Below, piece by piece: positions 1,198-54,015 of a DNA stretch of 64,000 bases. How positions within the stretch are numbered: the first letter of the stretch is position 1; every line of letters starts with the position of its first letter. The notes beneath the pieces are model-generated. The model ran no database searches. It was not told the origin of the DNA and was given only the letters and a program-made list of their open reading frames with translations. A program made the position numbers and the translations under genes. The stretch is from Ophiura sarsii (taxonomy: Eukaryota; Echinodermata; Ophiuroidea; Amphilepidida; Ophiuridae): NCBI GenBank assembly GCA_035610835.1, contig CM069452.1, positions 6,786,171 through 6,850,170 on the forward strand. Reading direction: 5' to 3'.

Positions 1198-1584
1198 CTG
1201 AAAAGTCAATTAAAAGAATACGCCAGATTGCGATAAAGAAATATCATCAAAAGATTAAGAGACATTACATCTTGGCATTACAAAAGGCTATGAAATAAAC
1301 AATTCGTCGGATTAATACCCTTCTTTTTCACTAGTTGCTTACCAATTCTCAATCACAATTGATCATTCAGTGGAAATGGGAACTTTCCACTCGTGTGCAT
1401 AGCTAAAGACACCAAATTTAGTTAACATCGCCTATGTTTCCTCTGAGTCTGGGCTATGACAATTTGAAATTTTGAAAGGTAATCTCAACCTGAGACAAAT
1501 AATCGCGCATTGTTATGATGGAACAACTACAGAAAACATTCAGTTTTCTTATTTTAATCTACCAAAAGTTAATCGTATTCTTAC

Positions 1585-4500
1585 CGGTGTCGTAAGAATC
1601 CTCCCCGTTGCTGATGTCAATAAATTCAATACAGAATGCCTGCGCAGACCAGTAACCAGTAGCCAAGTAAATGGGACTATTCCCGTTGAAGTCTAACCCT
1701 TGGGCATAAAGTAACTGCACCATGCTTGTGAGTCCTTCGTTACATGCTGTAACATCACTGACCATAGTATAGATTCTTGCAATCAATGCGGCTTTGAGAT
1801 CTTCCATGGCGCCATTGTTGCGGTTCTCCAGTGCGTTCGTCAATGCTGTACACATCGCAGGTGAATCCTCATAACCAAAGAATGATGCTGCCGCCAACCA
1901 CGTGCTGTTCAGTTGCTGGTTATAAGCATATGCTACAACGGGCTCATCATAGTAATTATCAGGCTTATTGTACTCGTAAACCGCGTCCCAATCAGTGCAG
2001 ATTTCAGCGGCTATTTCAATACCTAAGACCATCCAATGTTGGAGCACCTCGTCAACCAGAGTAGATGGGCTAAATTCAGAATTGATTAAGGTCTCGGTTG
2101 CCGGGCAGACAGTGTTGTACTCTTCCCAGACGGGGTAGTGTACGAGAGGTAACAGTACTTTCAGGAACTCACGGCCTACGTCCAGATCTCGTAGAGACAC
2201 TGGGTGAGGATTCTCGTTGTCATCAAAGAGTGGTACTAAGACATGACGGCAAGTAGAAGAAATGTTGTAGAGATCCTCCCCCTTGACAGCTTCACACATA
2301 GCTCCGAGACTCACATTGAAGGTGACGTTAGCAGGAATTGCATAAAGAACGCTGCCAAACTGGTCACATAACACTGTCATTGTATCCATTATGGTATTAT
2401 CTGAGCTGTACATCAAGCCAACAAAGGGAATGGCCATCTCAATGATGAGAGTGGGAAGAATCTCCGCCGGATTTGAAACCGTTGTAAGATTAATTGCCGG
2501 TAATTGAACATCGGAACCACCTGCAAACGAAGTCACAATATGCTCACAAAAGCTTTGATGTGTTTCATAACCAGTGATATTTGTAAAACTTATTTCAGTC
2601 GACAGAAATTGTACTCCGACGTCTAGAAGTTGGGTACATGTGGTGGAATCATGAAGCATCCCAAAAGCTGTTGAAGTGATTGAAGATGAGACGTTACGCA
2701 GGAACTCCTTGTGATCTTCAGTTGACGTGTTGTTTAAGTGTTGACATACTAAATCGTGAGACGTTGGATCTGGAAGATTGGCAAATAAGATTTCAATGAT
2801 TTGTTCTAGTGATGATATGATGTCCGATAGTGCTTCTCGATCCGTCGATGCACAGATATCAGACAAATACTCGCTCATTGCTGTATATATCAAAGACTCT
2901 GAAGCTGTGTAAATGAAATCTACAACCTGGTCATGCTCGGCAGTTATGAACTCAATTGATGCATCACAAACGTCGTATGGATTAGAGATATCGCTTAATC
3001 CGAACCGTACATGCATGAGATGGATAATCTCAGAGAATGTGCTCTCGAAACACGTCACACATGGTTCCCAGCCTGATTCCGGAGTGGCTGGAGAAGTAGA
3101 AGGTTTGGCTGGAGATGTAGAAGGTTTGACAGACGGATGCACATCTGTGCGTGTCGCATTGGCGATAGCCTCTATATGAGGATCTATGATTGACACACAG
3201 GTTGCAAAGAAGATCTTAGGTGGCAGCTCGTGAATGACATCACAGATATGAGTATTAAACATTGCCATAGTCTGATTGGTAGCGGTTCTGTCATTCCGAA
3301 TAGTATCGCAGGTAAATCTGGTAACGTTTTGAAGGTTTGCAGCATGATAAATAATCCCAGCAAATTGAGAAATATGTACCAATGGATTTTTATTAGTGTC
3401 AAAGGCAATGTTGGATATCGAAGAAGTATTGCGATTAAATTCTTCAATGAAAAACTCGCAAATGTGTTGGTTGGATGAAAATTGTAGAAGTTGACGAATA
3501 ATTTCTACATTAAACTCGCTCTCCAATACATCCAGCAATCCTGTGCACATGCGGACATCTTGCGTCATTAGCACCACGTTCTGCGTCATACGGTGAACAG
3601 TTTTATTCAACATGAATTTGTGTTCCGCGCTGCTGTTGCTTACAAGATGAGTAACATTCTCACAGAGTGCATCACTGTTTTCGTATTGCCCTAGATATGC
3701 AAATACAACACCAAGCAGGTGAAAAGGATCTATCGGCTCAAATCCAATATGACTTTCTTCGTCAAACTTTTGTTCAATGTCATCTTTAAGATATCCTTGG
3801 GCCATTCCAGTGACAATAGGACGTGGCGTTGTGAATGAAGCGACTGCTCTCTTCTCCCTCCAGTGATCCGAAATGGTCTCATCATCATCTTCGTCATCAT
3901 CAACACTCCAGGAGGTATGTTCATCTGTTCGGCCGTAGCAAAGCCATGGTGTTATCTCGGCTAGTTCCCAGATTGTCTGATTAAGTACTTCATCTATTAG
4001 ATGTGCCATTGTGACTGTGTTGTTGTAGTATATCGACGTAGTGACGTTACACACACCTTGAGATGTTGATAGGTCCAAGCCAAACACGTCATGCAACATC
4101 AGAAGGACACTCTCTATATCAGGAGTCGTGCCATTGCCTTGACTATTCTTCCTGCTTAAGAGAATTTGGGAAGCAGTGTCATAAAGCCATTTATAAACCG
4201 GCAGCCAATCAGTTTCACCTGAGTCATTCAGATCAAATATTTCATCTAATACAGAGGAGACGGTTTCCACGCATCCTTGCACGAAAAACGTCGGTGGCAG
4301 TTTTGTGATCAATTTACACATAGACACATCCAGTGCGTCCCCAGCGGCGTAGCTTACGGCGTCGCAAGTATTGCCGATAACATCTAATACAGAGTCGGCT
4401 TGGTAAAATCGTTGAATAAGGTCGGCAATTTCTAGCGACATATTAACGGAATCTGTTTCATTAGACCATCGGTCAGTGGTTGTGTTACCAATCATCATAC

Positions 4501-7500
4501 TCATAATGAGCGACATATTCATGAATGAGGTGGGTTGTTGATTAAATCCGTTCAATAAACCTCGGCACATTTCGTCATTGCTAGGTAGTCCTACAAGTCG
4601 ACTGATGGCTTGTATATTCATTGCACTGTCAGCTGCATCTAACATACCACTACATGCGCTAAATGTAGTGTCTGATGCAAAGAGATGCAACTTAGTCTTG
4701 ATCCTTTCAATCCATTCCCCCAATTCTCGCATGTCGCCATTGTTCATCTGAACTGCCGATACGATAGATGTCATATCGTCACACATAGCATCGCTGTTTT
4801 CGTATTCTCCTAAACCGGCAAATAGTGGACCAAGAAGGCTGAGAAGATCAAATCCGCCGTCAATAGATTGTCCGTCTGTAAATGGTTGCGTTGTCGCCTG
4901 CATCAAATCACGTATGTCTATCGTATCATTCCAAAGCGGAACGTCAGATGTTTTCCCGTAGCAAAACCAAGGTGACATATGTATAAGTTCCACAAGAGTT
5001 TCTTCTAGGACTTCATCAACAAGTTGATCTACAGATACTTGGCCACTTTGTAGGAATGACGAAATATATGAAATCTCTCGGAGAGTAGCATTCAGTGTTT
5101 GATCAGCTAGTTCAAAATACGGGACTGGTAGTTTGTTGATAAAACCACATAGAGGAACTTCTATGGTGCCATTGGTCATATGAGTCACGGTGTCGCAGGC
5201 AATACCGAGAACATCTCGAAGATTTTCCGCTCGATAGATTCGTTCAACGAAGGTGATGATTTCGTCCAAAGAATCAATGGAATCCACTTCATGACGCCAT
5301 CCGCTATTTGATGTGTTATGACTCATCCTGAAGAGCGACATTATCCCTTGTAAGATATGCTGTTGACTGATGAGTCCATTGACTAATCCTTGGCATATCT
5401 CGTCATTGCCAGGTATTCCTAACAATCTACGGATGACTCGTAGATCAAAATCACTCTCAACCGCATCCAGTATTCCTGAGCATGTGTCGGGATCTGCTAA
5501 AATGAGAGGCAAATTGTTTCTGATCCTGTATATCCATTCATCTAATGTTTCCTGATCCCCACTTGGCTGAATACCCGATACAATGGATGTTATATCTTCA
5601 CATAAATCATCGATGTTAGCGTATTCTCCTAAACTTGTTGAAATGACGCTTAGAGGTTTTAGAAGATCAAATCCACCCATCCAGTCTGTCATAGGTTGCG
5701 ATGTTGCCCCAATCCAATCACTAGCCTCCATCCTATCACTGCTATAGTCTATGGTTTCATTCCAAACTCCTAACGGAACCCCATAGCAAAGCCATGGTGA
5801 CATGATTGCTAGTTCTCTGAGAGTCTCGTCCAGGACTAGGTCAGCAAGTTGGTTGACGGAGAAGGTATTGCCTATCAATAATGCGCGATGAGTAACCTCT
5901 CTCAAGGTACCGTTTAGGATTTGTTCAATAAGTTGATCCAGAGGAAAGATGTCATCTATGTACTGTAGTGCTGACATATGTGCTAAATCTCTTAGAATCA
6001 TGTTCACCATGTTCAGCATTTGGTTAACAAATTGATCTACAAATTGATGTACAGAGAGTATCACGCCGTCTATGTACTGTAGTGGAGACAATTGTCCTAG
6101 TTCTCTTATAGTCTCGTTGAGCAATTGGTCAACCAATTGTCCTATATCCATCATGTCGCTAAAGTGCTGTAATGGTGACATGTGTGCTAGTTCTTGTAAT
6201 TCCTGGAGAGTCCCATTAATCATTTGTTCAACATGTTCAAAGAGTTGACCTACAACAATTTTGCCATCACCACTATTCAGATCTGGAAACATGTAGGCAA
6301 GTGCTTGTCGAATCTCGTTTAGCATTTGATCAACACGTTGCTCCAAGGAAATAAGGTCGCTGTACAACAACATTGCGGTGGCGTCACAAACTTCCCCTGG
6401 TGCGGTTTCAACGTTAAAACCAAACATATCTTCAAGAAGTCTTAGTATATGTTGCGGAGACAACATATCTTCAACACTATCCATGTCCCACCAGGTGAGA
6501 ATCCAGGTGGATACCTTGTTCAGCAGATCAGACGGACTTGGCAAACTTGGCCATTCCATCGACGTAAGCCAATCAAAACTAATGCCTTCTTGAATTCCAG
6601 ATTTAATGGCTTGCGTACATCCCGCTACAAATAACGGAACAGGAGCGTTAGCAATAAGACTGCACATGGGAATAGCGCCCCCGGTGATTGTGTTGATAGT
6701 GTTGCATCCATTGCTGACAACATCTAGCAAACGGTCGGCTCGGTACGATCGTCCGAGGAATTTAATTATTTCTATGGAATGATTAACATCTTCTGTAGAT
6801 TCTTCTTGGTTCTCTGTACTGCTGCTGCCACTGAAGGCTACCACCACGACTTCACATAGTTGTTCTTTACTAGTCAACCCCATGATTTGATAGATCATCT
6901 GTAGATTAACCTCATGTTCAACGACATTTAAAAATCCAACGCATGCGTTAAAATCATGTGTTGCAAACAGCATGTTGTTCTTTATTCTTTCTACATATTC
7001 ATCCAACTCGTTATCCAACTCGCCATTAACAACAGACGTGATGTCTTCACACAGCGTATCACTATCTTCATATTCGCCTAAGTATGTAAATATAGCCCCT
7101 ATAAGATCAAATGGATCAGAAATACCGTCATCAGAAGGCAGATTATCATTCAACCATGGGTTAACGGTTGTAAAGGGTCGGGCAGTCGCTCGAATCAAGT
7201 TGCCAAACTCCGTCATGTTATTCCATGCGGGATTTCCAGTTGTTCTCCCGTAGCACAACCAAGGTGAAATATATGCCACTTCCAGAAGTACATTACCAAG
7301 TGCTTGATCTACTATCCGCGCCACTGTGACGTCATTCTGGTACAAAACAGATGCTGTTGCGTTACACACACTTGCTGGTGCAGACATAATGTCAATACCG
7401 AATACATCTCTTAATAATGTCAAGATGCCATCCATTGAAAACATACTGTCATTTCTATGATTCTCCCACCAGGATAACATTGATGCATACATGTCAACTA

Positions 7501-10500
7501 GCCATTTAGACGGATTCAACCAAGTTGGCAATTGCAACTCAGGCCACTCTAGCATCGGCCTTTCTAACCATGATAGCCAATCTGTGTTATCTAGAAATAG
7601 AAGTTCCTCAAGAACACTATAAAAGGTTTCCTTACATCCTTCGACGAAATACTGCGGTGGAAGATCGAAAATCGTACCACAAACGGAGACGTTTTCAAAT
7701 TCTAACATGCCGCCGGTAACGTGGTTCATCACATTACACCCAGTGCTCATAGCATTCTGAAGGTTACCAGCATGATAAACATGTCCGATAAATGTCATGA
7801 TATCTCGGAATGAATATTCACTATCTGAGCTGCTTCTGTTTAAATAGAAGGACGTGTTTGACTGTAGTTGATCACTGAATCCTTCCATCAAAGCTCCACA
7901 TATTTCTTCATTACTAGAAAGTCCTGCATACTGGAAGATGGTCTCGTCACGTATCTGTCCCTCAACTGCATTCAACAGACCCACACATGCGTCGAGATCT
8001 TGTGATATAAACTTCATATTGTTCTTTATTCTTCCAACAATTTCATTCAAATCATCACTTGTAGTGTTGTTTTGGGTTACGACAGACGTAATGTCTTCAC
8101 ACAGTGCGTCTATGTCTTCATATTCTCCTAAATAGGTCATTACAACACCTAAGAGGTCAAATAGGTCGAAGCTATCGTCATCCGATGATTCATCATTGAA
8201 CCATGGCAGTGTGGTTGTGAAAGGTTGGGCTGTAGCCTTAAGCCAATCGCCTAATCCAGACGCCTGGTCAGCTCTTCCGTAGCAAAGCCATGGTGATACG
8301 TATGCTAATTCCATAAGAGACTCATCTAGTACCATATCAACGAGCTGCTCCATTGTGATCATAGTAAGGGCTTCGTTGTACACAACTGAGGCGGTGGCGT
8401 TACAAACATCTTCGGCCACGTGGAATCCGAGCATATTATAAAAATATTCAAGGATGTTCATTGTAGAGAATGTGTCTCCCAAATCAAAGTTATTCCACCA
8501 AGAGAGCAACGGTGTTGTTATCATATCTGTAAGGTATTCGACAACACTATCCCAGCTTGGTAGCTGTATCCACGATAGAATATCAACATCTCCGGTGAGT
8601 ATTGAGGTAACGCCTTCCGTGCATCCTGCTACGAAGTACTCAGTTGGCAGATTATACCTGATATCACATGTAGACATATTTCCAGGAAGACCGCCAGATA
8701 TCATGTCCATAGCATTGCACACAGAGATCGTAGAGTGTTTTTTGAATTTGTCAATCAACATCTCACACATAGCGCCACTTCCTTCATATTGATTCATAAA
8801 GCCAAAACTCATTTGACTCACAACTTCATTTAACATCCCAACACATGTGTTGACATCCTGTGTTGCCGCCATCAAATTGTTCTTTACTCTCTCCACAATT
8901 ACATCCAAGTCGTCATTCGTTGCATTGCCTTCGGTCACAACAGATGTGATGTCTTCACACATAGCGTCAATATCCTCATATTCTCCTAGATAGGTAATTA
9001 TGGTACCTAGAAGGTCAATCGGATCGAAACCATCCTCTAATGAAGGAAGGGCGTTTGTAAAAGGTTGCGCTGTTGCCTGAATCCAATCGCCAAAATCATT
9101 CGTCTCTTCTGATCTTCCGTAGCAAAGCGAAGGTGATATGTATGCTAATTCCCTAAGGGACTCATCTAGCGCTATATCAACGAGTTGCTCAACAGTGATC
9201 ATCATGAGACCTTCATTGTACACAATTGAAGCAGTGGCATTGCAAACATCTTGGACCACGTTGAATCCAATCATATTCTGAAGAAGATCCAAGATGGACC
9301 AGAGAGAGAACCTGTCTTCATCATGGTCGGTTAACCAGGACAGAACTGGAGTTACGATATCTTTTATTTGTCTGAAAGTGCTAAACCAGCTTGGCAGTTG
9401 TAACCAAGAAAACATGCTGTCATCTCCGTCAAGCATTGACGAAATGCTTTCCACGCACTCTGCTACGAAGAATTCAGGTGGCAGATTAGATTTGATATCA
9501 CAAATAGACATACTTCCGAAAAATCCACCGATCGTCATATCCACAATCTCGCATGTAGATGGCATAGAGTGGTTTTTGAGCTGTGCAATTAAACTGTGGC
9601 ATATAATTTCACTTCCAGGATATTGGGATATCAAGTCCAAACTTATCTGACTCTCAACGGCATCAAAAATTCCAACGCATGTATCCAAATCATGTGTTGC
9701 ATACATCAAATTACTCTTTATTCTCAGCACAATTTCATCCAACTCGTCATTCGTTGCGTTGCCTTCGGACACAGCAGATGTAATTTTCTCACATAGTGCA
9801 TCACTATCTTCATATTCTCCTAAATATATTAGTACGGCACCTAAGAGGTCAAATGGATCCAAATCATCGTCATGTGACGGTCTGTCGGCAGCCCATGGGT
9901 GAGATGTCGTAAAAGGTGGTACTGTTCTTTCTTGCCAGTCGTCGGTCTCACCCATTCTTCTGTAACAGAGTCCTGGGAATGCATAAGCTAATTCACGGAG
10001 AGTCTCATTCAAGAATACATCCAGTAGTTTGTCCACCATTAAATCATCGCTGTAAATAATCAACGCTGTTGCGTTACAGACGCTTTCAGGTACATTCGCG
10101 ATGTCGAATTCAAATACGTCTAGCAACATCAGGATCTTTTTCAATTGAAGTATCATTCCATTTCCGCCGTGATCCCACAAATCCGTCAGTTGTGTTAGGA
10201 TCTCCGTAACTCGTGCCATTATTCCATCTCCACCACTATTCCGTAAATCTGTTAGCAGCATGACGATTTTCCGGATTCGTACCATCATTCCATCGCCACC
10301 ACTACTCAACAAATGTTTAAGTTGCATGATTATCTCCTTAAATTTCATCATTCCATCTCTCCAAGTATTCAACATATCGTTTACAAACATCATAATGTCT
10401 TTCAATGATAACATATCTACTTGACCAACAATATTCCACCAGGAGAAGATTGGTTCTAAAATATCTGAAAACGGCTTTAACCAGTCTGGTAACCAATGTG

Positions 10501-13500
10501 GCATGGTGGGGCGATCTGGTGGACCCGAGTCCAGTATTCCCTCCAACAAAGTAGTAATAGTCTCCACACAGCCTGCGGCGAAAAACGACGGCGGAAGATG
10601 CGGAATCACGCTACACATACCGATGCTCAATTTGCCACCGCTTACATGGTACATGTTTCGACACACAGTCGTCATTACGTTTGTATCGATACCGTCTGAG
10701 TGGTACAGACGTCCAAAAAGTTGAGCCATTTCTCTCAGTGGATTTACACCATCCTTATCGTCCATTTCCTCATCGGAAGTGTCGTTATTGAAGAAGAAGA
10801 ACTTTTCATTATCTGCTTTATCGTGTCCAGTGAATCCTTCAACTACGATGTCACACATTTGTTCTCTGCTATGGACCCCGACAGATTGATAGAGTAATTC
10901 TAAATTCATCTTCCTCTCAACCGCTTCTAGAACTCCAATACAGGTCACATTATCTTCTAACGCGAACAGCAGGTTATATTTCAGCATGTCAACAACTTGA
11001 TCCAAATTATGCGCCATGCCATTGGCAACGATGTCTGTAATATCTACGCAGAGTGAATCACTGTCGTGATAGTCGCCTAAGTAGGCGAACACAACACCAA
11101 GGATATCGAACGGATCCATGACACGATCTGTATGAGATGATCGATCGGTGACCCATTGGTGGGATTTTGACGGCAAAGGCGATTCTGTGCCACTTTCCCA
11201 TTCTGAATCATAATCTGACATATAATCATAGTTAGACATAGCTTGTTGTCCATAGCAAAGCCAGGGAGACATAGAGGCCATGTCTCTTAAAAACTTGTCA
11301 AGGACTTCATCTACCAGATGCTCAAATGTAACGTGGTCGTTGTACAAAACTGAGGTAGCTGCGTTGCACAGATTTTGTACTGGTCTCGTCGGAAATCCAG
11401 GTCCAAATATCTTCTCTAATATCTCGAAGAAACCTTCCATTGGAAAACGTTCTTCTTTGAGAAAATCATACCACCAATTAAGCACAGAGAAATCTATATC
11501 GTTCAGCCAATCTAGATTGTTGAACCAATGTGGACCCTTAAACACATCATCATCATCATATAGTGCCTTGCATAATTTGCCGAGATTTTTGTGTCTATGC
11601 ATATGATCTTGATCATCAGCATCATCAAACCAGGAATCCATATCCCATACAGTTTCACACATTTCTTCTGATCGAGGTCCAAGGAATGATTCTATATCTC
11701 CGTCTTGGCCAAATATATCACAAGTTGTGTTTAATAGCTCGTGCATGTTCTTTGTGTTGTTTAAATGTCCCAGTACTTTGAGAAGTTCTTCAATAAACGA
11801 AGACACCAGCTCCTGTTCTTCATCTTGACCGTCTTCTACAGGTGGTAAGGCAGTTGTGAAAAACCAAGATTTCTCATCATCGTAGTCATCTGATCTGTTA
11901 TAGAAGTTATCTCGGAAAACACTGAGATAAATGATTTCATTAAAGTGTACAGCGTTAAAGATATCGGTAACCCGTTGACATAACATTTTATTTCCTGAGA
12001 AGCCAAACAAGTTGGCGAAATCTTCATCTCCTTCGTCTTGATCTTTGAGAATGTGCGTAAGAAGTCCAGTGCAAAACGAGGCATCGTGTAATGCATGGAA
12101 GGTTTGTTTAGTTGCATTGCCAATATATTTTCCCATATCGTTGTGGTTCCTGGAGGCATTCAAAATGACGTCATGACAAATATGATACCCGCTTAGATAC
12201 TCAAACATATCTCCAAAAACGTGGAATGTATCTTTATCCATCATACTAGGGATATCAGGATGATCGCTGGACATCATACACATTGTCGGGGCTCCGTGTG
12301 CAAGATACCGGAAGGAGTCATTCAGAGCTCGAACAATCATAGAATCAAAATTGTAACTCTCGTCATAAACACCTTTCTCAAATTTCTCACACCATCCACG
12401 TGGTCCGTCTCCGCGTGCAAATCCCCATGAGAAAAGGTCGTTCAAAAGTTCAGGTAAATGTAGAATAGAGAAATCGTCACTGAGCAGAAGTTCAATCCAT
12501 CTCGGAACATTGAAAAATGCAAAGTTGTCTAACAAATCTAGTAAAAGATGCTCCCATTGCCAGAAACTGCCTCTGGAGCCATCCAATACAGAGGATACTA
12601 CTTCCACACAACCTGCGACGAAGTACTGAGGAGGTAAATGAGATAGGATACTACAGATGCCATCATCTGTCCCGTTCTTTATCGTGTAGCATGTCGTGCT
12701 GATAGCATCTGGTAGACTACCGGCATTATAAATAAGTCCAGCCAATTTGAAGATTTCCTCTAATTTACCAGCATTCATACCGTCGCCAATATGGGATGAC
12801 ATAATGAATGACATATCGATGTCTGGAGTGGACTCTGGTTCAAATTCTTCCACCAAAGCTTGGCAGATTTCACCATTGCTTGTGACTCCTGCGAATTGGT
12901 GTAGAATCGCTAGGTCAAATTCAGTCTCAACCGCGTCCAAAATCCCAATGCATGTGTCGGTATCCTCTAGAGCAATAAGAAGATTGTATTTAAATATATC
13001 GATTATTTCCTCCAAATCATCTGAATTGTCGTCCTCTGCGCCTACAATGTGTGTAATATTTCCACACATCGCGTCCACGTTGTCATACCCTCCAAGATAT
13101 GTCATCACTGCACCTAGTACATCTACAGGACTGAAGGTATCGTAAGGTGTAGTTGGTGCCTCAGTTCCCTCCTGCCATTCTTCGTCTTCGCGGTCTTGAT
13201 TCATCCTTTTGATGGAAGGTTGGTCATAGCAGAGCATTGGGGACATACGAGCCAGTCCTCGCAGCGTCTTGTCAAGCATGCTGTCTACCAATATCGGAAT
13301 GGTGATATTATCGTCGTACACGACAGAAGCAGCAACGTGACACAGTCCCTCGACTGGTTTTGAAACGTCTAATTTCCACAAACGTATCAAGGACTTCGGA
13401 ATTCGATCAATGAAATGTTCCAGAAACGATGTGTCGAAGATATGAGAATACCAGTCTGACAGAGGAATCGATGGCCACAGATCCCAGACACTGGGTTCAA

Positions 13501-14912
13501 AGAGTTCTCGGCAACTCTCCGTGAAGATGTCCGACCATGGTTCGGTAGAGGAGTTACATAACTTACGTTCCTCTTCACTCAGTTGTCCGTTGTGGTCCAA
13601 TACTTCGCATGCGCCCCCGATGGCTTCATGGACAGACTTGTCAAAAACATAACCCGTGATGCTAAGGGCTTCGCGGAAGTGCATTCCAGCAACATCATCT
13701 GTGTTCTCCATTGAATTGTCACGCGACAATGACGGTGAATCCCGGTCTACAGGTGAATTGAAGGCGGTCACAATATCTTGGCAAAGTTGATGCTTGTCGT
13801 CGTATCCGAGTGGTTCTTGTAAATCTAATTCGTTTCTTGTATTTTGAACAGCCTCCAGGACACCTAAACACTCCTCTTCCTCTATGGTAACTGCTAATAA
13901 TATGTCGATCATCTCTTGAACGGTTTCATTTATTGAAATTTGATACATGAATTGCTCGTTTAATTCCATATTGTTGAAATCTTGGCACATGGCATCAGGA
14001 CTATCGGCTCCACCTAAATATGCAAATATGCTAGCAACTTGGTAGCCAGATAAGGGACCAAACTGCCCGTGTGCCCAAAATGTATCCTCAATCGATGTGT
14101 AGTTTCCGTTTTCATCTGATGCTGTGCGTCTAATGTCTTTTTCAGCTTCAACTTCATCTTCGCTTTCGCCACTATCTTTGTTCCACGGCAGTATGGCCCT
14201 TTTACCTCGACGACCTGGACGCCATCGTGAAGGTGCTTCTGTGACCATTGCTTCTGTTCCGAGTTCTTCAGTTGTGTCGACTTCGTCATTGTCGTCTCGA
14301 TTCCATGGAAATCTGATATTCCCCGTGTCAATGTTGTCTATAACGTTGTCTACAGTATCTTCAAAGGCATCTCTGATCCCGTCGATATCAATTGGAAGGC
14401 CTGTGGCGTTTTCAATATCCCATGGGATATCAATGATGTCGATTAGATCAGATAAGTCATCGAAAGGAACCGTATCCTCTTTGGCTTGGCAGAGATAGGG
14501 TGCCATTACTGCTATTTGAGTCAATATTTCATCTAATCTTTCTATCACAAGTTGTTCCACAGACTGATCACCGTGTTTGTCGATGAAACCCTGTAAGTCT
14601 TCACACTCATCTTGGTGGTTCTCAATTCCGAACAGACCCAGCATGAACCCCAATTGAGGGTCGTCATCCTCATTTTCCATCCAAGGAAATCTGGAACCAG
14701 ACCCCATATCTGCCTCCCATGACCACTGTAAATATTGGCTATCGCTCTTCAGCCACCAGTTGATAACCTTCCACAACAGCTGATGAAGGGATACCTGTGG
14801 CACTGGAATTTCAGGTGATGTCTTTTCTGTTACCAGCCATTCATCATCCCACCACTCTTCAGTAGCGGACAGTTGAGGAGGTGTCGTAGAACCAGACACT
14901 GCTCTTCGCTTC
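1585..14912 (-). CDS. Giant secreted repeat protein, 13.3-kb exon 2
   Basis: A single open frame of about 4,442 codons, bounded by an acceptor (CATCTTCAG before GAAGCGAAGAGC) and a donor (GACACCG before GTAAGAATACG). Both phases match the neighbouring exons exactly. The protein is acidic, rich in Trp and Asn-X-Ser/Thr sequons, and built from about 12 diverged repeats. A typical repeat has three parts: an LLGxxxTYLGEYEDSDALC segment with a later DxxTCVGxLxAVE; a TTCNTI..LPPxYFVAGC segment; and a VCNATAxxxYN...LxELAYxSPWLCYG segment. Cysteines recur at matching places, so each repeat is probably a disulphide-bonded helical domain. No EGF, VWF, FN3 or transmembrane domain is visible. Two furin-type KR-A sites lie inside. 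I do not recognise the family. A secreted structural, adhesive or coelomic glycoprotein is possible, but function is unknown. Confidence 0.9.
3848..3859 (-). other. Predicted furin-type cleavage site REKR-A
   Basis: The encoded HWREKRAVASFTT fits R-X-K/R-R and sits in the acidic linker after a TPWLCYGR repeat end. All three basic sites in this protein are followed by Ala and a hydrophobic residue (AV, AI, AV), which supports shared processing. Cleavage here would release the C-terminal part with the Cys-rich tail. Confidence 0.6.
5800..6360 (-). repeat. Local array of helical mini-repeats in the giant protein
   Basis: The segment that normally occurs once per repeat (QLVDxxLNETxRELxxxSPWLC) is here repeated about five times in a row, mostly without the cysteine: QELAHMSPLQ, RELGQLSPLQ, RDLAHMSALQ and so on, ending in RELAIMSPWLCYG. 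It looks like a small tandem amplification of an amphipathic helix pair of about 35 residues. Confidence 0.75.
10100..10365 (-). repeat. Four tandem 21-residue helical repeats
   Basis: The encoded sequence repeats the pattern GGDGMMxRxxxIxxLLTDLxx about four times at 63-bp spacing. On the plus strand CATTCCAT(C/T) recurs near 10154, 10219, 10281 and 10345. It is inserted between two ordinary modules of the giant protein and gives a Met/Leu-rich amphipathic stretch. Confidence 0.75.
14198..14212 (-). other. Predicted furin-type cleavage site RRGKR-A
   Basis: The encoded PGRRGKRAILPW contains the R-X-K/R-R consensus in a linker with no cysteines, about 235 residues after the exon 1/2 junction. 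Cleavage would separate a first module from the central array. This is predicted from the motif only. Confidence 0.6.
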
Positions 14913-17570
14913 CTGAAGATGACAAACAATAGTTACATTGACAAAATGGTTAACTCTCCCTCAGTATTGTTCATTTACCATCGTTAAAAACAACTTTGTT
15001 GTTCTGTAAATAGCATGCAGTGATAACATATACATGATAAACAGAAATCTATACTAACATTATGTAATTTTGCGTTCAAACAAGCATATTGTCCATGGAT
15101 TGCCTTGGGTTTTTTCTCAGGAAAACAAAAAAGTAAAGGCTTTGATGAAAATGATGCAAGTATTGACGCAACTATAATTTTCGATCGCAATTGTTACTAT
15201 TAACTCACTCCAGTCAATCAAACAAGCAAGGTCATTCATGTATGGAGAGATTCTAAGATGACACCATTCGACATCTCAATTAACAAATATATTTAATGAG
15301 TCATTGTTTTCTCCATGCAGAACATTAGCCGTGTCACTGTTAGCAGACATAATTACGAGTGAATCAATTACATTTTAATCCAAACAAGCGTCCTCGAATA
15401 TTTTAAGACCAGAACCCGGGGAAGAGGGGGGGGGGGTTACACTGATGTTAAAACAGGTGATATATGTTTGTGATGCCCTTCTGGTTGTATTGGTTTTAAC
15501 TGTCACTGGTTATATTGTACTTACATTAACTTATACAGCGGAAATCGCAACGACAAAAATCCAAAAAACAATAATTAAACCGAAGTATTTGGGTTCTTTG
15601 TCACATAACTTTTTTCAATCTCTTCTAGGATGACGATATTTAAAAAAACCGTTCAGACTTAAGAATGTTCCGCTTTGTTTGGTGAATACAGTTATATCAC
15701 TAATTTAACAATACAGCGTGTCACAGAATACCTCTTTACTTATTTTATGTAAAGAGAGAGATGGGTCGAAAAACAAGTTCAACCGATTTGAGGGGATATT
15801 TAGGTCCTGTTGGGCGGTTCGGTTCACCACTCCATCCGCAACTATTATTAGGGACTCTTAAGTTTCACTTTTATGCCATTGATTGTAATCATCTGAACAC
15901 ATTCTGGAAATACTATATTCTAGGAGGCCATTAGTCTCGGTTATTCACCATGTCTCTTTTTTGGAGGAAGGGGGGTGGGGTAATTAAGCTTGGTTTTTAG
16001 GTTTTCAAATTACTTAATTACAGATGTCGCAAAGTCGTTCAATCGATTTAATGGGGAAATCGCTGTACTCCTGTGCATCCTAACTAACGGCTCACTATTT
16101 TACACACATGCAGATTTTTATCTTATTCGCTATCAATTAACTTTTGTAACGGTCTTAAAATGGGCAGGCATGTTTTCAAATGTTCATGTTGTGCCGTGAC
16201 CATCACGTTTGCTAATTTGTGAATACCCGTGTAATAATAAAAATGTCACAACCTTTTGTATGAATAAGACAATAGAGAACTTGAACCCTGGTACCATGTG
16301 TATAATACATGTGCTCTGTTATGTTTTTGATCTTTTAGTGTCAATGGTCATGAATAAACCATCACGTTATACAAGCGTCATATATTTATAATTGTACAGT
16401 GTCGTGTTTGGTATCATATCATCGAATTCAAACATAAAGGACTACAACTCAATTCACAGGGAGAAATGCCGAACATTGTCTAAAAATGACAACATTTCCA
16501 CAAGAAACGCAGATGTTGCTCATTGTCATGATTGTTGGCAACCTGACAGCTTTATAAAAAGTTGCACGCATTATTCGAGAACTTCAGACAATTGTGCGCC
16601 CTTTTCGGCAATTAAAAAGTATAAAGGGTTTTTTCCGGTAGCTTACTCATTTTTAACAATGTTTAAAATGATTGTTTTTCGGTCAATAATTATTTTATTT
16701 CTGTAAAAACGAAATTCCCATGTCATAGGATTTAAAATTATGTTTGTGTGTTTTTATGGGCTTTTTGTGTATTTTAATTAATTATATATTTATTAATCAG
16801 GTGGAGCCAAGAAGGAAGAAGGCAGAGACTGGAGTATGAGTTAGTGACTTTATCTCTGGTAAGCAATGGTAAGGGATGAATCTTTGGAGCGACTGTGTAC
16901 TTTGCCTCACCCACACCCTAGCTGTATTATATTCCTCTGTTTGATAATACAGAATATCAGGGGTTTATCGTTGATTAGAAGGTCCTCAACTACAAATGTA
17001 TAATGACGCAGGTCGCCCGCAAACAAATCTCGATCCATAAGTCTATAGCAGCCATCATTGTGTTAAACTATAATAAATTATTTTTGTTTGTAGAACTCTT
17101 TGTTTGATTTCACCAAAACCTTCGATTCATTCTCATTATTTGGTTTTAACTTAGACATGTAAGGAGCATATGATGGGTGACTCTCGTTTGGGGAGCGAAA
17201 TGTTCATGTGTCACACACATGCACCCTCCGTAACGCCAATATCATGACTAGACAGAAAATATAAATAATCGTTGAGTATCACCTCTCGATTTGGGTAAGA
17301 CGAAAAGATAAAGATAAAGGATGTAAATTTTACAAAGTTCATCTGTGAATGAACATGCTGGCTTCTTTTAAAAAAACGGTAAACTTAAAAAATATGCAAA
17401 TCATACTAAAGTTGCTGGATTTATATCAGGCTTACGCAGTCACAGTCGCGATCTCATATCTTATGAGCCCGGATTATGAACGTTACAATTGAAAAATAAA
17501 AAGAATGACAAGTTTGTTCTCTGTAAGAATTTTCCAATTTCATCCAAGAATTGGAAAATCAAAGAGTTCG

Positions 17571-31521: not shown

Positions 31522-32790
31522 ATCAAAAGGTTTTGTTTTAATTCAAAAGTTTTCAAATTTTATTTAAAAAATTAAAAAGACCCCGCCTGCCCACGCCCCG
31601 TGGCATATTTCAACTCCAAGGCCTAAACATTAACCATCTCCCGTACCCCACCCGTCACTCCCCCGCCCAGGCGGGAACGACGCCCCGTGGCATATTTCAA
31701 CTCCAAGTCCTAAATATTAACCATCTCCCGTACCCCACCCGCCCTTCCCCCGCCCTCCCCGCCCCTACCGCCATTCCCGCCCGCCCCGTGCTTGTGACCT
31801 TCAAGGCCTAAATTAATCAACTCCCGTAGCGCAGCGTATTTCTCCAATATTTGCCCGCCGCATGTATAGGGGTGCGTGTGTGTATCAAAAGGTTTTGTTT
31901 TAATTCAAAAGTTTTCAAATTTCATTAAAAAAATTAAAAAGACCCCCGCCTGCCCACGCCCCGTGGCATATTTCAACTCCAAGGCCTAAACATTAACCAT
32001 CTCCCGTACCCCACCCATCACTCCACCGCCCTTCCACCCGTCACTCCACCGCCCTTCCACCCGTCACTCCACCGCCCTTCCACCCGTCACTCCACCGCCC
32101 TTCCACCCGTCACTCCACCGCCCTTCCCCCCGCCCGGGCGGGAACGGCGCCCCGTGGCATATTTCAACTCCAAAGCCTAAATATTAACCATCTCCCGTAC
32201 CCCACCCGTCACTCCCCCGCCTTTCCCCCGCCCGGCCCTCCCCCTGCCGTCCCTCGCCCGCCCCTAAAGGCCTAAATTAATCAACTCCCGTAGCGCAGCG
32301 TATTTCTCCAATATTTGCCCGCCGCGTGTGTGTATCAAAAGGTTTTGTTTTAATTCAAAAGTTTTCAAATTTCATTAAAAAAATTAAAAAGACCCCCGCC
32401 TGCCCACGCCCCGTGGCATATTTCAACTCCAAGGCCTAAACATTAACCATCTCCCGTACCCCACCCATCACTCCACCGCCCTTCCACCCGTCACTCCACC
32501 GCCCTTCCACCCGTCACTCCACCGCCCTTCCCCCCGTCACTCCACCGCCCTTCCCCCCGCCCGGGCGGGAACGGCGCCCCGTGGCATATTTCAACTCAAA
32601 AGCCTAAATATTAACCATATCCCGTACCCCACCCGTCACTCCCCCGCCTTTCCCCCGCCTTTCCCCCGCCCGGCCCTCCCCCTGCCGTCCCTCGCCCGCC
32701 CTCCCCGCCCCTAAAGGCCTAAATTAATCAACTCCCGTAACGCAGCGTATTTCTCCATTTGCCCGCCGCGTGTGTAGGGGTGCGTGTGTG
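31522..32790. repeat. C-rich nested minisatellite in RPS6 intron 3
   Basis: About three copies of a 360-450 bp macro-unit, each starting ATCAAAAGGTTTTGTTTTAA (31522, 31884, 32334), then CCGCCTGCCCACGCCCCGTG, and ending near TTTGCCCGCCGC. Within copies 2 and 3 a 23-bp unit, TCACTCCACCGCCCTTCCAC plus CCG, repeats about five and four times. The plus (mRNA) strand is almost pure C-rich and the template strand is G-rich. Copy number is likely variable. Confidence 0.9.
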
Positions 32791-40930: not shown

Positions 40931-41639
40931 AACTTATTTATTTTCAATGATTAAAATAAATGATTTTTTGTGTGTGGTATTTTTTCTTTATGTACAAACA
41001 GATGGAGTTTTGTTGCAAAAGGGCCTACATCCAAATTTTCAAAAAATGTAAACATGATTTAAAAATAAAAATAAAACTAGCACATTTAAGGGCAGTGTCA
41101 ACCCGGCACTTTTTTCAAAAATTGAATTTCATATTTCTCTATTATTTTATACTTTTATATGTATTCTATCATTACCATCATAAGTTACTAATCGGAAGCG
41201 ATTATTTCCCGTTCTTTTGGGTGATTTAAAATTGTTGTTTTGGTAAGTTTGAGCCAGGAAAAGGCGCATGGTTATTTGGCGGGAATTTAAGCGGAGTTCC
41301 GCGCTTTTCAAATGCTGCGACAGCTGTTCGATCATTGCGTCGCGCGCTGAAACTTCCCGCGCGTAATACTAGACGCGCCGCTTAATATCCGCGACATAGA
41401 CGCGAAAAACAAAAGAGCGCAAAACAATGTCTAAAAATAGGGACAGCGGTCCCAAATAGGTCGTCCGTTTATAGGGTAGATTAAAAACAAGGTGGATCTC
41501 AAACCACAGGCATCTAGAAAGAAAGAGGTTAGACCACTAGCGGATCCAGGATATAAAAAATAAAATAAACATCCTTGAGTTTGGTTGCAATTGTACTTCA
41601 CCTGTTTAAATGTAATTAATTTTACATATGCAGCTAATT

Positions 41640-42605
41640 TTACATCTTGACCTCATATGACCTTTGACCTTGGTATGTGACCTTTGACCTAATTAACATA
41701 TGAATGTTTCCATGTTGCATCCGTGACCCAAGTTTGGTTGCAATTGGTCATTGTATGGAAAAATGAACAAGAGACAAAAAAAAAATGAACAAGAGACAAA
41801 AAAAAAGTGTACTAATTTTTACATCTTGACCTCAGATGACCTTTGACCTTTCTATGCGACCTTTGACCTCATTAACATGCGGGTGTCCATGTTGTATCTA
41901 TGACTGAAGTTTGGTTGCAATTGGTCATTGTATGGAAAAGAAATGGAAAAATGTAATCAATTTTACATATGCAGCCATTTCTACATTTACATCTTGACCT
42001 CAGATGACCTTTGACCTTGGTATGTGACCTTTGACCTCATTAACATATGAAGGTTTCCATGTTGTATCTATGACCAAAGTTAGGTTACAATTGGTCATTG
42101 TATGGAAAAGAAATGGACAAATGTAATCAATTCTACATATGCAGCTTGACCTCGGATGACCTTTGACCTTGGTATGTGACCTTTGACCTCATTAACATAT
42201 GAAGGTTCCCATGTTGCATCTATGACCGAAGTTTGATTGCAATTGGACATTGTATGGAAAAGAAATGGAAAAATGTAATCAATTTTACATATGCAGCCAT
42301 TTCTACATTTACATCTTGACCTCAGATGACCTTTGACCTTGGTATGTGACCTTTGACCTCATTAACATATGAAGGTTTCCATGTTGTATCTATGACCAAA
42401 GTTTGGTTACAATTGGTCATTGTATGGAAAAGAAATGAACAAATGTAATCAATTTTACATATGCAGCCACTTTTACATATACATCTTGACCTTGGATGAC
42501 CTTTGACCTTGGTATGTGACCTTTGACCTCATTAACATATGAAGGTTCCCATGTTGCATCTATGACCGAAGTTTGATTGCAATTGGACATTGTATGGAAA
42601 AGAAA
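41640..42605. repeat. Six-unit satellite with paired DR1 nuclear-receptor motifs
   Basis: Six tandem units of about 152-179 bp. Each carries two copies of TGACCTTTGACCT, the exact complement of AGGTCA-A-AGGTCA (DR1), starting 20 bp apart: 41658/41678, 41837/41857, 42005/42025, 42157/42177, 42327/42347 and 42497/42517. Eleven of twelve are perfect; the copy at 41857 starts CGACCT. DR1 is the known binding site of RXR heterodimers, HNF4 and COUP-TF. Each unit continues with CATTAACATATGAAGGTT and CAATTGGTCATTGTATGG. Whether it binds anything is unknown. Confidence 0.9.
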
Positions 42606-42670
42606 TGGACAAAACAAAAAGTGTATACCAAATTGTAACAAAAAGTGTATACCAAAAAGTGTATACCAAA

Positions 42671-52220: not shown

Positions 52221-52747
52221 CTGTAATGGAATGATAAAATCAATTTTCAATTTTGAAATTCAAATTTTGGAGACAATGTTATTTACATTTTGGAAATAAT
52301 GTTACTCCCGACTATAGTTTAATTAATAATTGAACGAACAATTGCGGAATGAAGTACTGCGTAAACAAGTCCAAGCAGCGCATGCTGTATGATAATATGT
52401 ATGAGACTTGTGCCATATGCTGCGTAAGCTTGAAAATATGTACAAGTCCTCACGCCAGCGGTAGCACTACATCAATTGTGTATCTTGTAGCTAGCCGCAT
52501 ATACGCTATGTGAACGTGTTCGTTCATAATTAATCAGACTATGTTATGGAGATTGTCCAAACCTGGTTGAGACAAGCCTGGCTGACTCATGGACATGGCC
52601 TGAAAAAATGTTTTTATCCTGGCAAGCGATTCCAAATTTCTCTCCAAAATGGAATGCATTTCTTAATGAATGAGTAACATTTCCCTCCAGATGCCAAAAT
52701 TTCCCTCCAAATGCTCAGATTTCCCTGCAAGGAGCTTTCCGTATTGC

Positions 52748-53842
52748 CTACTTTTTCAGCCTGTGCTCATGGACATATTGCCTTGAGTGAATGATTAACT
52801 TACCTGTGACAGTTCTGGTTGTGACAGTCCAGGCTGAGATAGTCCTGGCTGTGAGAAACCTGGTTGAGACAAGCCTGGCTGACTCATAGGCTGACTCATG
52901 GACATATTGCCTTGAGTGAATGATTGACTTATCTGTGACAGTTCTGGTTGTGACAGTCCAGGCTGAGATAGTCCTGGCTGTGAGAAACCTGGTTGAGACA
53001 AGCCTGGTTGACTCATAGGCTGACTCATGGACATATTGCCTTGAGTGAATGATTGACTTATCTGTGACAGTTCTGGTTGTGACAGTCCAGGCTGAGATAG
53101 TCCTGGCTGTGAGAAACCTGGTTGAGACAAGCCTGGTTGACTCATAGGCTGACTCATGGACATATTGCCTTGAGTGAATGATTGACTTACCTGTGACAGT
53201 TCTGGTTGTGACAGTCCAGGCTGAGATAGTCCTGGCTGTGAGAAACCTGGTTGAGACAAGCCTGGTTGACTCATAGGCTGACTCATGGACATATTGCCTT
53301 GAGTGAATGATTGACTTATCTGTGACAGTTCTGGTTGTGACAGTCCAGGCTGAGATAGTCCTGGCTGTGAGAAACCTGGTTGAGACAAGCCTGGTTGACT
53401 CATAGGCTGACTCATGGACATATTGTCTTGAGTGAATGATTGACTTACCTGTGACAGTTCTGGTTGTGACAGTCCAGGCTGAGAGTCCTGGCTGTGAGAA
53501 ACCTGGTTGAGACAAGCCTGGTTGACTCATTATAGTCATATTGCCTTGAGTGAATGATTAACTTACCTGTGACAGTTCTGGTTGTGACAGTCCAGGCTGA
53601 GATAGTCCTGGCTGTGAGAAACCTGGTTGAGACAAGCCTGGCTGACTCATAGGCGGACTCATGGACATATTGCCTTGAGTGAATGATTGACTTACCTGTG
53701 ACAGTTCTGGTTGTGACAGTCCAGGCTGAGATAGTCCTGGCTGTGAGAAACCTGGTTGAGACAAGCCTGGTTGACTCATAGGCTGACTCATGGACATATT
53801 GCCTTGAGTGAGTGGACCTTGAGAGAACGGCTGGGAACCATC
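52748..53842 (-). repeat. UPF1: 129-bp tandem repeat amplifying the UPF1 SQ exon (8 units)
   Basis: Eight near-identical units in gene order have boundaries at plus positions 53691, 53562, 53444, 53315, 53186, 53057, 52928 and 52799. All spacings are 129 bp except one of 118, caused by a 9-bp and a 2-bp deletion in unit 3. Each full unit codes 43 residues: about six (M)SQP/GLSQP blocks, then ELSQ(V/I)SQSFTQGN, giving eight SQ and one TQ. Unit ends alternate between CAG-GTAAGT, a perfect 5' splice site, and CAG-ATAAGT, where the GT is lost. Units 2 and 8 end GTAAGTTAA, so reading through gives VS-stop. A truncated ninth copy follows to about 52748, and a fragment lies at 52560-52605. Confidence 0.92.
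53696..53842 (-). CDS. UPF1: UPF1 SQ-rich exon (first repeat unit)
   Basis: Acceptor GTGTGTTTACAG is followed by GATGGTTCCCAGCC, encoding DGSQPFSQGPLTQGNMSMSQ and on to PELSQ. It aligns with the SQPFSQGALTQG..SQPGLSQPELSQ tail of vertebrate UPF1, the region phosphorylated by SMG1. It ends CAG before GTAAGT, phase 0, and joins the terminal exon as LSQ-DSYLG. Using the next donor instead (exon end 53567) would add a complete 43-residue unit in frame. Units further downstream cannot be reached without passing the VS-stop or the unit 3 frameshift. Confidence 0.88.
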
Positions 53843-54015
53843 CTGTAAACACACACAAAAAATAGTAAATGGGTAAAATTAACTTTACATTTTATTGACT
53901 GTTGTCTCTGGATATATGCAGTGAGAAATATTATTTGTTCCTGATTTGGGCTAAGAGGATTTGAGACAAATAAACAAAGGAGTATTCCACGAAGGGATTT
54001 TTTGCTATCATGTAT

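Follow-up and report, generated by a model that had tools for sequence, protein, structure and literature searches.

The question raised by this locus is whether a tandem array in the C-terminal coding region of UPF1 multiplies the phosphorylation sites offered to the kinase SMG1, or whether the repeated units act mainly on splicing. The window, by which we mean the whole 64-kb stretch of DNA that was analysed, lies on a 73.4-Mb contig, and the genome searched, one haploid assembly, comprised 1,573,662,873 bases in 748 contigs. A complete 21-exon model encoding 1149 aa was built on the minus strand with about 30 kb of neighbouring genome, and the introns are GT-AG in 20 of 20 cases. The predicted protein is 69.5% identical to human UPF1 over 1169 alignment columns, it exceeds the cut-offs of PF09416, PF18141, PF13086 and PF13087 (CH/UPF2-binding, 1B, and helicase AAA_11/AAA_12), and its best matches in a PDB sequence search are human UPF1 chains. 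The domain set of UPF1/RENT1 is present together with an S/TQ-rich C-terminal tail, and contig C1 of the same genome carries SMG1, in the form of four pieces that exceed the PF15785 cut-off. The domains, the PDB matches and the gene model agree with the first-pass annotation in naming the gene UPF1. Among the matches listed (120 of 206), the tail is closest to four echinoderms, namely Antedon, Acanthaster, Lytechinus and Apostichopus; three of these four also lead for residues 360-1066 among the matches listed (120 of 2905), where Acanthaster is 80% identical. No brittle-star UPF1 occurs among the protein matches listed. A comparison of the protein tails indicated that the region of the exon 20/exon 21 junction is kept in relatives with small changes. 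Matches to Rfam families at the gathering score and tRNA genes numbered zero in the window.

Tandem Repeats Finder reports the array at 52766-53811 with a period of 129, 8.2 copies, 95% matches and a score of 1945, and the best repeat score was 60 in 200 first-order Markov sequences built from 52700-53900. When the units were cut out and aligned, eight near-identical units were obtained between 53810 and 52790 on the minus strand (Table 1), seven of them 129 bp and one 118 bp long. The earlier description of a 129-bp unit present eight times and almost unchanged is thus right in number and near identity, with the exception of the shortened unit, which carries deletions of 9 nt and 2 nt. The further count of 43 codons and nine S/TQ sites per unit is exact for the standard unit in the UPF1 frame. 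What had been regarded as amplification of the SQ exon needs a different wording: the sequence does encode the C-terminal S/TQ segment of UPF1, but the unit joins the last 115 nt of exon 20 to the first 14 nt of intron 20, and each copy thereby includes the exon-20 splice donor. Similarly, the interval 52748-53842 originally given for the repeat holds the array but also takes in the beginning of the exon, which is not repeated (53842-53811), and 18 bp of a mobile element (52748-52765). Searched against its own genome, the array DNA matched this site only, plus a 32-bp fragment of a ninth unit at 52559-52590.

Table 1 Positions, within the window, of the array units and of the UPF1 exons and putative mobile element next to them
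Feature	Position	Strand	Remarks
UPF1 exon 20	53842-53696	-	147 nt, phase 0 to 0; ends at unit-1 donor; normal SQ tail; from gene model and relatives
Unit 1	53810-53682	-	donor intact after 53696; in frame
Unit 2	53681-53553	-	donor intact after 53567; in frame; read-through TAA at 53560-53558; one SQ changed to SP
Unit 3	53552-53435	-	118 bp; frameshifted by deletions of 9 nt and 2 nt; donor intact after 53449
Unit 4	53434-53306	-	donor lost (CAG|ATAAGT)
Unit 5	53305-53177	-	same sequence as unit 1; donor intact after 53191
Unit 6	53176-53048	-	donor lost (CAG|ATAAGT)
Unit 7	53047-52919	-	donor lost (CAG|ATAAGT); identical to unit 6
Unit 8	52918-52790	-	donor intact after 52804, then TAA; two variants in common with unit 2
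Ninth partial unit, first piece	52789-52766	-	24 nt; ends in target duplication; from unit alignment
hAT-like non-autonomous element (putative)	52594-52765		172 bp; 8-bp target duplications CTCATGGA at 52586-52593 and 52766-52773
Ninth partial unit, second piece	52593-52559	-	begins with target duplication
UPF1 exon 21	52220-52116	-	last exon, contains stop; strong phase-0 acceptor; from gene model

The locus therefore has the build of a donor-bearing VNTR: the tandem repeat sits at an exon-intron boundary, and the donor position is present in every unit. The donor CAG|GTAAGT is intact in five of the eight units (1, 2, 3, 5 and 8), and a G-to-A change has turned it into CAG|ATAAGT in the other three (4, 6 and 7). 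A search of both strands of the 64-kb window gave five exact matches to CAGGTAAGT, all of them within the array. With a leave-one-out score of 13.6, this donor is the best of the gene's 20 donors, the next one scoring 11.9, and the acceptor of exon 21 likewise scores 13.6 on the gene's own acceptor matrix. Acceptors inside the array reach 4.5-4.7, compared with 1.7-13.1 for the gene's 20 real acceptors. Another candidate acceptor, CATTTTTTCAG, which is part of the mobile element next to the ninth unit and looks good by eye, was rejected with a score of less than 4 on the same matrix.

Counted from the exon-20 acceptor, the exon length is divisible by three for donor 1 (147) and donor 2 (276) and for none of donors 3-8, which leaves units 1 and 2 as the phase-0 donors. 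Reading through the unit-2 donor gives GTA AGT TAA (Val-Ser-stop), and a loss of 11 nt shifts the frame of unit 3, so the frame that starts at the exon-20 acceptor is open over units 1 and 2 only. A UPF1 protein with up to eight SQ units and correspondingly multiplied SMG1 sites is extremely improbable for this reason, and coding through all eight units was rejected on frame. In favour of such a protein, the unit length of 129 is a multiple of three, units 4-8 can be read through in the UPF1 frame (a 243-aa open frame), and, in the parts of the reports drawn on here, S/TQ sites are cumulative in human UPF1 (PMC4987530) and LSQ is a site preferred by SMG1 (PMC7334022). However, the array is open in two frames, and an open frame is therefore no evidence of coding; the long open frames (243 and 269 aa) were discarded as a sign of it because frames stay open when the period is a multiple of three. 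The substituted unit columns are synonymous in one of eight cases (column 40), or two of eight if column 19 is counted alone, against 23% for random changes. The repeats show no sign of coding constraint, in numbers too small to exclude it. The suggestion that extra units multiply the phospho-sites thus shrinks to two in-frame units and eight additional S/TQ sites (from 33 to 41), compared with the 63 that seven nine-site units would have brought, and the claim of an eight-fold phospho-tail, judged on this DNA, does not hold for this allele.

Two proteins are possible from the phase-0 donors, a one-unit form of 1149 aa with 33 S/TQ and a two-unit form of 1192 aa with 41. The unit-1 donor leads to the normal UPF1 tail, as in relatives; since seven of the eight units lie beyond this donor, they are intron by homology. 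In the tail, the one-unit form has an ordinary 15 S/TQ and the two-unit form 23, compared with a maximum of 20 among the 92 relatives, out of 179, that passed the tail filter. If the S/TQ sites add up as they do in human UPF1, and considering the LSQ preference and the presence of SMG1, the two-unit UPF1 may act more strongly. A second unit was found in none of 275 fetched proteins, which come from overlapping sets (120 of 206, 120 of 2905 and 96 of 96); annotated proteins would hide an intronic array, so this count speaks to coded units only. Within the last 220 residues of these 275 proteins, the only exact internal repeat of at least 12 aa is in P0068, outside the SQ tail, and P0141 contains the searched motif twice, not as a unit. 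In P0266 and P0267, two ORFs whose tail resembles the human one, the sequence reads PELSQ|VSQ, which suggests that the same donor is read through in mammals. The pentapeptide SQPGL is itself repeated inside the unit, and its number differs among echinoderm, hemichordate, amphioxus and lamprey tails (P0001-P0011); the UPF1 tail thus seems to be prone to repeat growth at two scales.

The remaining intact donors lead to a different outcome. If donor 3, 5 or 8 is used, the predicted protein has 1160 aa and lacks the last exon, and its stop precedes the junction by 109 nt (donor 3), 367 nt (donor 5) or 754 nt (donor 8). A stop more than about 50 nt before an exon junction makes an mRNA a substrate of nonsense-mediated decay (NMD), a rule that we assume to be valid in echinoderms, and the in-frame stop of all three donors lies beyond this distance. 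One reading would be a poison-splice switch, in which the downstream donors are used often and the stop-containing UPF1 mRNA feeds back on the level of UPF1. In human cells, zebrafish and worm, the mRNAs of NMD factors, UPF1 among them, have been found to be under negative feedback (PMC3783168), and the stop distances fit such a switch, but the feedback features known from the part of that report used here are long 3' UTRs and uORFs. Three of the eight donors are dead, and the lack of a second unit in the 275 proteins also speaks against the switch, though proteins would hide an intronic array; we regard it as improbable.

We favour, with a probability of roughly two in three, the explanation that the array is a young splice-donor minisatellite, from which the main mRNA would be the one-unit form, some mRNA the two-unit form, and a rare fraction stop-containing. 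It would have started as a tandem duplication reaching from inside exon 20 to 14 nt into intron 20, which then grew into a minisatellite and copied the exon-20 donor in every unit. Four extra perfect donors would now compete with the native donor for one strong acceptor; choice of this kind can be shifted by SRSF1 and hnRNP A1, as described in the part of PMC5585400 used here. The unit-1 donor would supply most of the mRNA and the ordinary UPF1, and the unit-2 donor may be used in some mRNA, adding 8 S/TQ sites to the protein. Donors 3, 5 or 8 would be used more rarely, and translation would then stop at the Val-Ser after unit 2, in an mRNA that UPF1's own pathway should destroy.

Some observations weigh against this explanation. 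Among competing donors, exon length favours unit 1 and nearness to the acceptor favours unit 8, and this nearness could therefore put the unit-8 donor ahead of the unit-1 donor. Moreover, six of the eight aligned units have CAA behind the donor in place of a TAA that looks ancestral; together with the donor loss in three of eight, these are the changes that exonisation would need, although one event of each kind, spread by copying, is possible. Consensus errors at the stop of unit 2 or at the deletions of unit 3, if there are any, would mean that a longer frame exists.

It may also be that the unit-1 donor is the sole one used and that the other units are inert intron. With 147 nt, the one-unit exon 20 has an ordinary length and its product carries the tail that relatives have, the other units show no sign of constraint, and the array has been struck by a large mobile-element family. 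On the other hand, four further perfect donors stand in the same exonic context, and in the part of the ABCA7 report used here a neighbouring donor of the VNTR is used at a low level (PMC5954066), so that we think complete silence unlikely, if still worth keeping in mind.

The units differ pairwise by a maximum of 5 substitutions, with a mean of 2.6 per unit over 28 pairs, or about 2%. This is below the heterozygosity of 3.22% given for Amphiura filiformis in the part of PMC11310086 used here, which would make the units about as young as alleles of one population. The view that near identity implies recent expansion is therefore sustained in the sense that either expansion or homogenisation was recent. 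The low divergence makes variation in unit number plausible, although gene conversion would look alike. Units 2 and 8 have the variants of columns 40 and 122 in common, and unit 5, with its intact donor, stands between unit 4 and units 6 and 7, which have all lost theirs; both patterns suggest that the array grew in blocks of one or two units, perhaps by unequal exchange or slippage.

An assembly artefact, with a wrong number of units or wrong variants, was also considered. The A. filiformis assembly, which is relevant if it is the same genome, was made from Nanopore R9.4.1 reads and has a QV of 31.6 beside its heterozygosity of 3.22% (PMC11310086, as far as that source was drawn on), and short-read polishing would be weak inside repeats. 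Nevertheless, an array of about 1 kb is spanned by long reads, and the variants are distinct and patterned (unit 2 with unit 8, unit 4 with units 6 and 7, and a complex change in unit 3), which makes such an error quite improbable.

The ninth unit gives a relative date for the array. It is split by the 172-bp element, so the array is older than the insertion. A first look at the genome gave 1481 candidates for this element, of which 40 were scored, and the 39 besides the element itself were 95-98% identical. Exact 8-bp flanking duplications were present in 10 of the 12 other copies that were read at their ends, while L011 matched at 7 of 8 positions and L008 was not clean. Duplications of 8 bases and end sequences of this kind, which we take to be the signature of hAT-type non-autonomous elements, suggest that the element belongs to this type.

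Among the papers listed in the literature search, none was noticed that describes a repeat or donor array in the UPF1 tail, and the parallel that did come up is the VNTR in intron 18 of human ABCA7. For that VNTR, the part of the report used here describes frame-shifting isoforms from a cryptic acceptor and from retention of one unit, at 14 and 2%, respectively (PMC5954066); we take the 2% figure to be the unit retention. As in UPF1, the repeat starts at the exon-intron boundary and its first GT is the donor of the exon; the donor one unit further is used and the protein is changed, and the length differs between people (PMC5954066). However, the ABCA7 unit is 25 bp long and described as intronic, and an extra unit shifts the frame (PMC5954066), whereas the UPF1 unit is 129 bp long with 115 nt exonic, and one extra unit stays in frame. 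The UPF1 array further differs in that an extra unit would add phospho-sites, that some of its donors are mutated, and that the gene encodes the NMD helicase. The find is thus new in gene, unit type and lineage, but its kind has a clear precedent, of which ABCA7 is the closest.

Other known systems resemble the array in part. In intron gain by tandem duplication, AG|GT lies within the duplicated segment and new splice sites can arise through repeats, with fission yeast genes in which a 24-bp AGGT segment is repeated as the cited example; unlike these, the UPF1 array multiplies an existing donor, and its internal acceptors are weak. Tails with repeated phospho-sites, such as the S/TQ tail of UPF1 and the CTD of RNA polymerase II, have many sites of one kinase in a disordered region with a cumulative effect (PMC4987530), whereas this array could code for two units at most. 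The autoregulation of NMD factors is a parallel in that the NMD pathway feeds back on UPF1 mRNA, but the features described for that feedback are long 3' UTRs and uORFs, and here the feature is a donor array (PMC3783168, in the part used here).

A more far-reaching idea is that the alleles of the array form a length-variable dial, in which the number and state of donors would set how often the mRNA acquires an extra SMG1-target unit or a premature stop, the latter to be detected by UPF1 itself. We consider this very doubtful; if true, both the dose and the phospho-site count of the NMD effector would be tuned by the alleles that one species carries. Should alleles vary in length or in the state of their donors, natural variation in UPF1 dose and tail phospho-sites would be measurable. 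The locus is a natural row of identical donors in near-equal exonic context before one strong acceptor, which would offer a test of splice-site choice, and a wrong choice in the gene of the NMD helicase would produce a transcript that this very helicase should destroy.

Other repeats were observed elsewhere in the window. At 1562-14932 on the minus strand there is a single open frame of 4457 codons with internal repeats (LLG..TYLGEYED.DALCEDITSVV and CNATASVVYN); it matched zero Pfam families and zero PDB sequences, and it resembles a secreted or surface protein of very large size that is built of repeats. A tandem array with periods of about 150-170 and 322 bp, rich in TGACCTTTGACCT, occupies 41639-42613, and two arrays at 32011-32132 and 32461-32559, about 330 bp apart, have the 23-bp unit CCACCCGTCACTCCACCGCCCTT in common.
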